DNA from: Dehalococcoidia bacterium
Lineage (GTDB): Bacteria > Chloroflexota > Dehalococcoidia > Lucifugimonadales > Lucifugimonadaceae
Assembly: GCA_022824185.1 (NCBI GenBank)
Contig: JAJEAU010000015.1
Coordinates: 92,268 to 156,267, forward strand
Reading direction: 5' to 3'
DNA: 64,000 bases
The notes below the pieces were generated by a model that saw only the letters and a program-made list of their open reading frames with translations, had not been told where the DNA came from and did not search any database. How positions within the stretch are numbered: the stretch's first letter is position 1; the number at the start of each line of letters is the position of its first letter. Below, piece by piece: positions 60,555 to 64,000 of the stretch. The translations under genes were made by a program, and so were the position numbers.

Positions 60555-63404
60555 TCACAACCTCACATTACAAACCACCGGCTCTGAAGCCAACAACACC
60601 CGCAACCCCCGCAAATCCGGCAATCCCAGAATCTCCGACACCCCCTCATCCAACGCCGACCGCGCAGCACAATCCGCCATCCCCGGCAACCGTTCAAATT
60701 CCGCATCCGCCAACTCATCGAAAAGGTCTGACAACCCGCTGAGTTGCGACGTAGTAATCTGACTAGGATCCAATACAGGCAGGATTCTAAGTTCTGATTT
60801 CTTGAACTTAACCCAAGGTCCCCGTGTGGTCGTACGGATTCCGAGCAACGCAAGAATTCCCAAGCTCGAGTTCATCCATACCGCGACCGCCTTTTCATGA
60901 TCAGGGTCGTTAAGTCTTAACGGCCACCATACGTTTGACAGAACATTCTCGGAAGAGCGCATCGTCACAACCCTTACGGTTTCTAACCAAATACGTTCGC
61001 AAATCAAAATCCGTCCAGCCTTCGGCCACAGAGTATCAATCGGTTTTAGCCGTCTACCCGGTCGAGGTGACGCCAAAGGTGCGAGATATTTGTCCGGGAT
61101 TGTTGAAATAGTGCGGCGTACATCCGTGTTGTGGTTTTCGACCATACGGTAAGCAGTTACAGTATTTGTAGGTTCGAAGCCGTCACGAACGTCTCGAATG
61201 TCCGGACCAATCTCACTTATCTGATCCAAACGACACATCGGCACACTGCCAACCGAAGCTTCGCCAGGCACCCAAACCTCGCCATCTTCCAAAAGCCTCA
61301 ACGCGCTTCGCACAACATCAGCCCGAGCGAACTGTACACCCGACCACTGCTTACCCTTGAGCTTCGATTCCGGAACCGAAAACACCTCGCCTACATGCTG
61401 GGCATCAACCTCTAGCAGGGCAGTGCCCGTATCCTCAATCCTCGCCGGCTCAGTTGTGTTGATCGCTTCAGCTACACGATGGGCGTCTAATATCCCTTTG
61501 GGGTTCTCCCAAAGGTTGACGAATGTGGTCCGATGTTCCTCTCCATCCCCGTTATCAGGACGCCGAGTCGCGATCAATAACGCTTCGGACAATTCCGTGC
61601 TGTCCGAAAAGTTCCAACGCGAAGGATCATGCGACGCCACTACCACGTCCAACATATAGTCGTTCTCTATCAACGCCCGCGTCTGCGACCACGAAGGACC
61701 TGTGCAAACTGTCAACGGCAAAACCAACGCCAAACGCCCTTCGCCAGGCCGCAATTTCGGCGATGCTGCCGCTACGAACGCAGCACCAAGCCCCGCGGTC
61801 GACGACGCCTGCATCGACCGCAAGCGACGCGACAACTCCCGTTGAAGCCTCGTTCTTTCCGCTCTCGGTAAACTCCCAAATAGTAGGTTCCCGCCAACTG
61901 ACCTAGTAAACGGCGGATTCATTATCGCCAGATCCAACTCCGGCAGTCTCGCCGTTTCTCCTTCTTTTACCCCGCGCGAGCCTCTCCCAGATACTCGCCT
62001 AGCATCTCGCGTCGTGATGCCAGTCTGTTCAGGCGACATTGCATACTGCACAGCAGCTTCGTTTGAGTTCAGGAACTCTAACGACCCCAGCAGGACATTC
62101 GAACCCTCGACCCCAAGTGCCATCTCGTAAAGCCTCATGTGCTCGAATTTGATGTCAGGGTTGAGCATTGCAAGGCTCGTCGCTGCGAAATGCACCGCCG
62201 ATAGCTGTACGTCGTAGCCGTACAAAGCTCTTTCAACCATCTCTTTGTGAAGAGCCGCAGCTTCAGTTCCTCCCGCATCCGTGTGTTTCCGCTCCACCTC
62301 GGCAGCCACTGCCATCAGCAACGTCCCAGTGCCGCACGCTAGATCCGCGATATTGAGTGATGCCGGATACTCGTGGTCGGACCAGTCGACACCCTCAGGC
62401 CAGTCATCGAATACCAATCTTGACAGCATTGTCGCCGCGGGAACAGATGTATAGTACGCCCCAGTGAACTTGGCATCCGTTAGGAGCGTGTGAAACAACC
62501 GCCCTGCAAGATCATGCCCTTCTAGGGTCCGCGTGTCCTTTACAGCCTTTACCAAAGGTTCGATGACCGGAAGTTGCACTTCTGGAGGACCGTCCTTGAG
62601 CACATCCACGATGTTCCCGGCCAACTCAAAAACTGGCACGTAGTCGATTTTGTCCATGACGTAGGTCCACGCGTCGTGCAACCCGTCGAGGTCTTTTCTC
62701 AATGCTTCGTTTACGGTGGCTACATCATCGTCTACCGCAGCGAGACGATCTTGAAACGCCAACGCGTTGAAAAGCACCAGACACCCGATACGTAGAGCTG
62801 CCGCGCGATCCTTTTCCTTGTCAGATTTGGCGATAATATCCGAAGTCCGCCGCGCGATTCTGGCGTGTCCAGCAATCTTCTGAGCCGACTCTTCAAGCGC
62901 GTAACCCACGACACCGGCCGCAGCCTGAACACGGTCAACACCCTCAATCTCCAATGGAAGAACTCGCAAGTGATCCGCGAGGTCAACAACAGACCCGGTC
63001 CGTACACGATGCTCGTTTTCTACATCCCCGCGAACCCCGTGTAGCCACCATTCAATGTCACCGGCATTCTCCAAACACGAAAACACGTCTGCTGCTTGAC
63101 GAAACTCCTCGGGATATACAACGCCCAATATCCCTAACTCATCTGGAAAAGCATCCAATCTCTCGTTTAGCTGTGACTCCAAATCATTGCGCGAACCGCC
63201 GTACTTGCATTCCATCAAAACGTTGTCGCCGGTTCTCAACTCAACACGAATGTCCGGGACACCTTGCCGACTACGTCGCTCAGCGCGTGCGTCGATTCCG
63301 CGATCCTTCAGCATGCGAGCCAAGGCGACGTTAAACGCCTCCTCGCGATTAGTTTCCGATCTGTCTCTTCTAGGCATGTCCAGCTGTGGCACTTCCCGCC
63401 CCAT
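60555..63404 (-). CDS. single-polypeptide restriction enzyme/N6-adenine DNA methyltransferase (type IIG-like)
   Basis: N-terminal nuclease-like PDIRVELRTGDNVLMECKYG (PD...ExK), MTase motif I DLACGTGTLLMAVAAEVE, motif IV LAIMNPPFTRSVGG; ~950 aa. Confidence 0.82.
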   Translation of the reverse strand: MGREVPQLDMPRRDRSETNREEAFNVALARMLKDRGIDARAERRSRQGVPDIRVELRTGDNVLMECKYGGSRNDLESQLNERLDAFPDELGILGVVYPEEFRQAADVFSCLENAGDIEWWLHGVRGDVENEHRVRTGSVVDLADHLRVLPLEIEGVDRVQAAAGVVGYALEESAQKIAGHARIARRTSDIIAKSDKEKDRAAALRIGCLVLFNALAFQDRLAAVDDDVATVNEALRKDLDGLHDAWTYVMDKIDYVPVFELAGNIVDVLKDGPPEVQLPVIEPLVKAVKDTRTLEGHDLAGRLFHTLLTDAKFTGAYYTSVPAATMLSRLVFDDWPEGVDWSDHEYPASLNIADLACGTGTLLMAVAAEVERKHTDAGGTEAAALHKEMVERALYGYDVQLSAVHFAATSLAMLNPDIKFEHMRLYEMALGVEGSNVLLGSLEFLNSNEAAVQYAMSPEQTGITTRDARRVSGRGSRGVKEGETARLPELDLAIMNPPFTRSVGGNLLFGSLPRAERTRLQRELSRRLRSMQASSTAGLGAAFVAAASPKLRPGEGRLALVLPLTVCTGPSWSQTRALIENDYMLDVVVASHDPSRWNFSDSTELSEALLIATRRPDNGDGEEHRTTFVNLWENPKGILDAHRVAEAINTTEPARIEDTGTALLEVDAQHVGEVFSVPESKLKGKQWSGVQFARADVVRSALRLLEDGEVWVPGEASVGSVPMCRLDQISEIGPDIRDVRDGFEPTNTVTAYRMVENHNTDVRRTISTIPDKYLAPLASPRPGRRLKPIDTLWPKAGRILICERIWLETVRVVTMRSSENVLSNVWWPLRLNDPDHEKAVAVWMNSSLGILALLGIRTTTRGPWVKFKKSELRILPVLDPSQITTSQLSGLSDLFDELADAEFERLPGMADCAARSALDEGVSEILGLPDLRGLRVLLASEPVVCNVRL

Positions 63405-63519
63405 CAGGGCTAAAATCCGTAATTGAATTCACTACATCGAAACATGATTCTACGCTGAAGCCCCGTTACCTTTTCCCCAAATGGCAGAGATATCCCCACC
63501 ACCTCCACAACCCAGCGCA

Positions 63520-63720
63520 ATTCAAACAACACACAAATCCAAAACCCCGAAAATCATCCCAGAATCCTCAAACCCAGACCAACACGACTTCCAAAAATCA
63601 ACACGAACCCAACGAATCCCGCAACTCACATCCATACAACAAACGAATCAAAACCATCTAACCCCACATACACAACGAATCCCGCAAATTCCCAACAACA
63701 TCCCAAAACAACTTGACAAC
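63520..63720. other. A/C-rich, G-poor intergenic tract with 15-nt direct repeat
   Basis: Hand count gives 11 G in 63541-63720 (180 nt). CAACGAATCCCGCAA occurs at 63610-63624 and 63673-63687. Confidence 0.7.
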
Positions 63721-63753
63721 CACCACAACCGTGCTGTTACACTGAGAATCAGT
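63713..63753 (+). promoter_or_regulatory. putative sigma70-type promoter with operator dyad
   Basis: TTGACA at 63713-63718; candidate -10 GTTACA (63736, 17-nt spacer) or TACACT (63738, 19-nt spacer); perfect dyad ACTGA-GAA-TCAGT at 63741-63753. Confidence 0.45.
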
Positions 63754-63772
63754 CAGATCGAGATATGACATG

Positions 63773-63950
63773 CGTCGTGGCGACGGTCGCGGCAACCCCA
63801 GCCCTCGAGGCCATCGGGATCGTGTTGGAAGTCGGAAGAAACCCGCAACGCGGGAGGAGGACCAGCTTCCTTGGCGTCACCCCGCAGCTCCTGACGAGCG
63901 AGCTGAAAGGCCTTGCTGAGACGCCTCAGTCGAAAGACTGTGGAGGGATC
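63773..63950 (+). other. hairpin-rich leader / candidate structured RNA
   Basis: CGTCG-TGG-CGACG (63773-63785), CCCGC-AAC-GCGGG (63842-63854), CAGCTC-N9-GAGCTG (63885-63905), CTGAG-ACGC-CTCAG (63916-63929), CAGTC-GAAA-GACTG (63927-63940). Confidence 0.45.
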
Positions 63951-63956
63951 CGACAT

Positions 63957-64000
63957 ATGAAGCGTGCCCGGGACTGGTTCACGGACGCGGCCGACGGTTA
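63957..64000 (+). CDS. start of an unidentified ORF truncated by window end
   Basis: GGAGGG at 63942-63947, 9 nt before ATG 63957; MKRARDWFTDAADG... runs off the window. The same frame is open upstream to ATG 63765. Confidence 0.4.
   Translation, partial: MKRARDWFTDAADG

Follow-up and report, generated by a model that had tools for sequence, protein, structure and literature searches.

Candidate multi-copy structured RNA genes in one genus of uncultured Dehalococcoidia

The window, a 64,000-nt stretch of contig C17 in genome G000 (positions 92268–156267), probably ends in the start of a multi-copy, non-coding, and highly structured RNA gene of ~0.8–1.0 kb, whose product would be abundant and trans-acting, in the manner of the large bacterial RNAs OLE, ROOL, and GOLLD. 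This gene, referred to as class A, belongs to a previously undescribed group of large folded RNAs, with dozens of copies spread over the genomes of one genus of uncultured Dehalococcoidia. It is demonstrated below that the element is a repeat present in several copies, does not code for protein, has a covarying structure, shares its promoter signature with other classes, and changes class at orthologous sites. The original prediction of an undescribed element, a structured RNA behind a promoter-like signature, was borne out by covarying stems and the lack of an Rfam match; its reading as a leader ahead of an ORF cut by the window edge had to be given up.

Class A copies and their coding capacity

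The right edge of the window coincides with the end of C17, and its final ~290 bases represent the 5′-most quarter of a non-coding RNA gene of ~1 kb, which the contig end truncates (63742–64000, + strand; assigned from sister-copy identity and covariation). The last 294–301 bases of the window recur at 94–96% identity at the start of C9, the end of C1, and the start of C20 in G000, and the end of C22 shares the first 195 of these bases with 98% identity. Class A 5′ halves were found at five G000 contig ends (C17, C9, C1, C20, and C22) and 3′ halves at six contig starts (C4, C5, C6, C16, C18, and C21), and therefore the genome carries at least six copies. A decayed 3′ fragment is present at C21:179595.

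C20 and C18 overlap exactly over 141 bp, and several other contig-to-contig overlaps in the assembly have the same size; one complete unit was therefore readable, the full-length G000 copy being C20 and C18 joined over this assembly overlap. The joined unit begins with the promoter, continues as a GC-rich stretch of ~980 nt, and closes with two small hairpins followed by a tail (TTAAACGCGTC in general and TAAACGCGTC in this copy). As the 3′ hairpins have no U-tract, their role as a terminator is only putative.

Full-length homologues with distinct flanks occur in at least 12 copies in G006 (same-genus MAG JAJEGY01, Dehalococcoidia), and scanning GTDB contigs for the exact pattern returned 12 sites in Dehalococcoidia bacterium p16x57bins.56 (JAJEGY01), which places the lineage in Chloroflexota, Dehalococcoidia. 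In G000, class A copies precede the 16S rRNA gene (C18) and the 23S rRNA gene (C21), and class A also lies upstream of the 23S rRNA gene on C32 of G006, as judged by the shared flank. An RNA element was observed immediately 5′ of each rRNA gene (16S, L027:890–2390; 23S, L029:354 onward).

The supposed ORF proved to be a chance frame. The GGAGGG motif (63942–63947) and the ATG at 63957, proposed as a ribosome-binding site and start codon, are present, but they serve no gene: in C9, C1, and C20 the frame runs for 14 codons and meets a TAA stop one base beyond the window, reading ...GACGGTTAA (GGCGGTTAA in C9). The 14-codon product 'MKRARDWFTDAADG', tentatively ascribed to a HEPN-domain protein or a reverse transcriptase, is missing from relatives, and with no ORF downstream both candidates were ruled out. 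We give almost no credence to the idea that the start of class A is protein-coding sequence from ATG 63765, through ATG 63957 (63765–64000, + strand). That frame does stay open through 63957 in the G000 copies, but it is lost in the G006 copies, and the five G000 copies differ along it by 31 non-synonymous and three synonymous changes, distributed over the codon positions as 8/16/11 with no third-position bias. The codon-periodic, mostly synonymous substitution pattern of a protein-coding gene was not seen in this frame. The original prediction had named coding conservation from ATG 63765 without covarying stems as the finding that would count against it; the opposite was obtained, with no coding and with covarying stems. 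As judged from the sister-copy stop and the substitution pattern, class A is probably an RNA gene without a protein product.

Secondary structure and covariation

The folding energy of positions 63742–64000 was −96.3 kcal/mol, compared with −97.1 kcal/mol for shuffled sequences (z 0.17). The 5′ part is thus unremarkable by energy, and the impression of many hairpins, which had led to the description of a hairpin-rich leader, is what such composition gives. It is the covariation between copies that exceeds chance instead. For the 5′ domain, the structure on 12 copies from two species has 13 helices comprising 68 pairs. Of its cells, 91.5% are paired, and 14 pairs carry both-side changes (40 cells); slid controls gave 2–15 cells and 34–47% paired, although the structures were derived from the alignments on which they were scored and so hold an advantage over slid versions. 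The observed cell count or score was reached by 0 of 500 shuffles, a test made liberal by the relatedness of the alignment rows. Counting independently in Python, with 13 copies, led to the same result. For the 3′ domain, eight copies and 54 pairs gave 92.7% paired vs. 32–46% in slid versions, and both-side changes at seven pairs (14 cells vs. 0–2). The compensatory changes, by their number and their spread in the alignments, make a stronger point than the slid and shuffle statistics, and on this sequence comparison the secondary structure is backed by covariation in both halves of class A. An eight-row alignment was used in place of one with 14 rows and many gaps, for which RNAalifold yielded a poor structure. 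Covariation was scored for class A, and a class B alignment was folded.

The clearest single case is the GAAA-capped hairpin noted originally (CAGTC-GAAA-GACTG, 63927–63940), which is conserved with double changes and extended by a CCUC/GAGG pairing to CCUC-AGUC-GAAA-GACU-(GUG)-GAGG (63924–63946, + strand; 100% paired). Its inner stem reads AGUC/GACU in C17 and C9, GCCU/AGGU in C20, and AUCU/AGGU in C1, so that three of the four inner pairs are altered on both sides among copies otherwise ~95% identical. The hairpin is an insert absent from the G006 copies. The neighboring CTGAG/CTCAG hairpin (63916–63920/63925–63929) is present in the window but varies between copies (CTCAT in C1 and CTCGC in C20), and since no conserved pair of hairpins remains, the proposed mutually exclusive arrangement falls away.

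Promoter signature, further RNA classes, and exchange at shared sites

The TTGACA box reported in the original prediction was confirmed at 63713–63718 (+ strand) as the −35 box of the class A promoter, invariant across class A copies of both species. By inspection, the putative −10 box is TACACT (63738–63743, + strand; 19-nt spacing), kept in all five G000 copies, with GTTACA (63736–63741; 17 nt) as an alternative. The −10 box is weak, and a strict sigma-70 scan made no call for the class A promoter. A 13-nt dyad (ACTGA-GAA-TCAGT, 63741–63753), taken for an operator, does exist; it is not a conserved operator, as it lies across the −10/start region, is disrupted in two copies (C9 and C20; ACTGGGAATCAGT), and is absent from the second species.

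An upstream signature, AGTTCARACAA-N1-6-TTGACA, gave 17 matches in G000, G004, G005, and G006 and none in a reversed control. It was found only in these four genomes, which are those carrying the RNAs, and the matches inspected (part of the 17) all sit on members of the RNA classes. Upstream of the window copy and of C9 the sequence is a variant one (CATCCCAAAACAACTTGACA in the window), and these two fall outside the 17 matches. Directly 5′ of the promoter lies an A/C-rich, G-poor tract (63480–63712, or 63420–63712 in its wider delimitation; no strand assigned), and the abrupt change from this tract to GC-rich sequence was confirmed (GC skew down to −0.74). Comparable tracts stand ahead of other copies and come in two versions, one in C17 and C9 and the other in C1, C20, and C22. 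The A-tract upstream sequence AACAAAATCCCAAAAATCCC..AGTTCAGACAA was also seen as a direct repeat just 3′ of two class B elements (right flanks of L090 and L092). Elsewhere in the window, a 949-aa ORF (60555–63404, − strand) contains the DLACGTGTLL and NPPF motifs of N6-adenine methyltransferases and has no Pfam match at E 0.001.

Five further classes were distinguished. Class B, RNA-like and ~0.8–1 kb long, has six copies in G000 (C10:259522, C12:73684, C15:51911, C18:64041, C7:91938, and C17:83021), seven in G006 (loci L174–L195), and one divergent copy in G005; it contains long near-invariant blocks (GGATGTAGCTGCA..GGTTC, TACTGCTTAAGCC, and CACGAGCCAGA). Class C has six full copies (C1: 226249, 819437, 919390, 1192959, 1918219, and 2296588) and two partial copies in the single-contig genome G005, and is similar in G004; these sister species hold no class A. 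Since G005 is a single contig, its six full copies show that assembly did not create the multi-copy dispersal observed in the genus. Class D is the commonest cause of assembly breaks: contig ends of G000 (L012, L018, L021, L022, L028, L030, L040, L046–L050, and L059) carry ten of its 5′ halves and between nine and eleven of its 3′ halves. Class E, a distant relative of class B (E 3e-50), has three 5′ and three 3′ halves at the ends of G000 C5, C6, C10, C11, C15, and C21, and class F has one copy, upstream of the 16S rRNA gene in G006. A hairpin with loop GUCUGGCGA is common to B, C, and D, and the string CGAGCCA to B, C, D, E, and F. Class A has none of the internal motifs common to the other classes, and C, D, and F score weakly against one another's profiles; it is therefore not shown that all classes go back to one origin. 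In G000, 36 of the 46 contig ends fall in class A, D, or E copies. Most contig breaks thus lie in these RNA genes, which explains why G000 assembles poorly and implies that RNAs of this kind readily go unnoticed when metagenomes are assembled.

The sites of G000 and G006 were compared by their flanking genes (identity ~75–95%, or rRNA), covering the flanks examined and not a full census. The same class occupies four shared sites: L191/L192 (B), L015/L081 (A), upstream of 23S (A), and L182/L245 (B). At L015/L081, the two class A copies have opposite orientations relative to the flanking gene. Seven shared sites hold different classes: L188/L087 (B–A), upstream of 16S (A–F), L012+L040/L085 (D–B), L018/L244 (D–A), L028/L131 (D–A), L042/L192 (E–B), and L048/L183 (D–B). 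L192 is counted at two sites, as a rearrangement separates its two flanks in G000. The gene at L182 has no element in G004 and G005, and the gene at L173 has one in G000 and none in G006, G005, G004, or G002; as the flanks are rearranged, the empty-site junctions are not cleanly readable. The comparison of flanks demonstrates, at the level of sequence, that the elements exchange class at orthologous sites.

Known RNAs and competing explanations

Rfam cmscan returned no match to the element in the window at the gathering threshold, in the C20-side part and the G006 copies up to E=1, or in the C18-side part up to E=0.5. Among the members of classes A–F, only rRNA scored above threshold, with sX6 and whalefall-1 as weak sub-threshold chance matches. 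R1, a covariance model built on the 3′ domain, detected class A in two of 247 genomes of the order, G000 and G006, and a search of 36 relatives with laxer filters gave no more than marginal scores outside these two. No convincing class A was found in other genera, where weak family-level matches were ~30 bases long. Being confined to two species, class A does not allow deep conservation to be demonstrated. A literature search on large ncRNAs in SAR202/Dehalococcoidia returned nothing relevant.

Few large ornate bacterial RNAs are known, among them OLE, ROOL, and GOLLD, and what they do is poorly understood (PMC12286853). Class A resembles them in its size, its extensive fold supported by covariation, and its lack of coding capacity, while the Rfam models of OLE, ROOL, GOLLD, and HEARO did not match the window, C20, C18, or the G006 copies. 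ROOL is a large structured ncRNA of unknown function; in Ligilactobacillus salivarius it is as abundant as 16S rRNA, and an lncRNA of that species equated with ROOL is even more plentiful than 16S rRNA (PMC12286853, PMC5643018). ROOL is encoded by prophages, phages, and a megaplasmid, often near tRNA islands, whereas class A is dispersed in many copies on chromosomal contigs. Many GOLLD RNAs exceed 800 nt and have an elaborate structure of unknown function (PMC12286853); their size is similar, but they are phage-associated, unlike this dispersed family of one genus. No viral contig carried the exact class A or B pattern (0 matches in IMG/VR, exact patterns only). OLE, in the cited accounts, is a large structured ncRNA working in an RNP complex (PMC10898510) and is hosted by Gram-positive extremophiles and anaerobes (PMC9723947).

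REP and MITE-type repeats are likewise multi-copy, non-coding, structured, and present or absent between species. Class A differs from them in its much greater length, its own promoter signature, and its complex covarying fold, and several unrelated classes here stand under one promoter type. It is nevertheless quite possible, if short of an even chance, that class A is a non-autonomous selfish mobile element, in which the RNA or its DNA form moves and the structure serves mobility; this is compatible with a structural RNA. Many near-identical copies in intergenic sites, the L173 slot filled only in G000, the L182 slot empty in G004 and G005, the differences in class and orientation at orthologous sites, and the decayed fragment on C21 point this way, and high copy number with presence/absence suits a selfish element equally well. 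Against it, no reverse transcriptase (PF00078) was found in G000, G005, or G006, and the position upstream of 23S is kept in both species. Inspection of the ends by eye revealed neither a terminal inverted repeat nor a constant target duplication; the G000 left and right ends placed side by side showed no constant inverted ends, although each copy's two ends are split over contigs. The compensatory changes preserve pairs, which shows that the fold of the RNA is under selection across copies.

A cis-acting leader or switch for a downstream gene is very unlikely. Some copies do lie upstream of same-direction genes, such as those for 16S and 23S rRNA, but the downstream genes vary by copy, with no common one and no conserved position before one gene family; moreover, the element is reversed toward the same gene at L015 vs. 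L081, has its own 3′ hairpins, and in the window precedes a frame that is over after 14 codons. There is equally little probability that class A is a degenerate intron, whether of group I or of group II, or belongs to some other known kind of ribozyme element. Its size, structure, and multi-copy dispersal would suit ORF-less introns, but the Rfam searches above gave no intron or ribozyme match, G000 encodes no RVT_1 domain, and the copies are intergenic with their own promoter.

Under the preferred reading of class A as a structural RNA gene, transcription would start from its own sigma-70-type promoter at 63713, proceed at a high level, and terminate ~1 kb downstream at the two small hairpins and the tail. 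By analogy with OLE, ROOL, and GOLLD, the RNA may work in trans, either structurally or as the scaffold of an RNP, and its many copies may provide dosage, as for rRNA, spreading and swapping through recombination between shared ends. Only tentatively, and with more doubt than confidence, we propose that the classes form a modular set of large RNAs under one promoter type, exchanging fixed chromosomal slots at ~25 copies per genome, as lineage-specific, dosage-amplified structural RNAs without a known bacterial counterpart.

The genus thus combines several large RNA classes, many copies, and a shared promoter signature, and class A extends the known set by new structural RNAs that covariation supports. 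The presence of different classes at the same sites amounts to a natural experiment on what such RNAs require. A REP-like hairpin repeat (CCCTCTCC..GGAGAGGG / CCCCTCCTTCAGGAGGGGG) was also observed in variable arms of the RNAs (L093, L088, L084, and L087) and at many intergenic loci.
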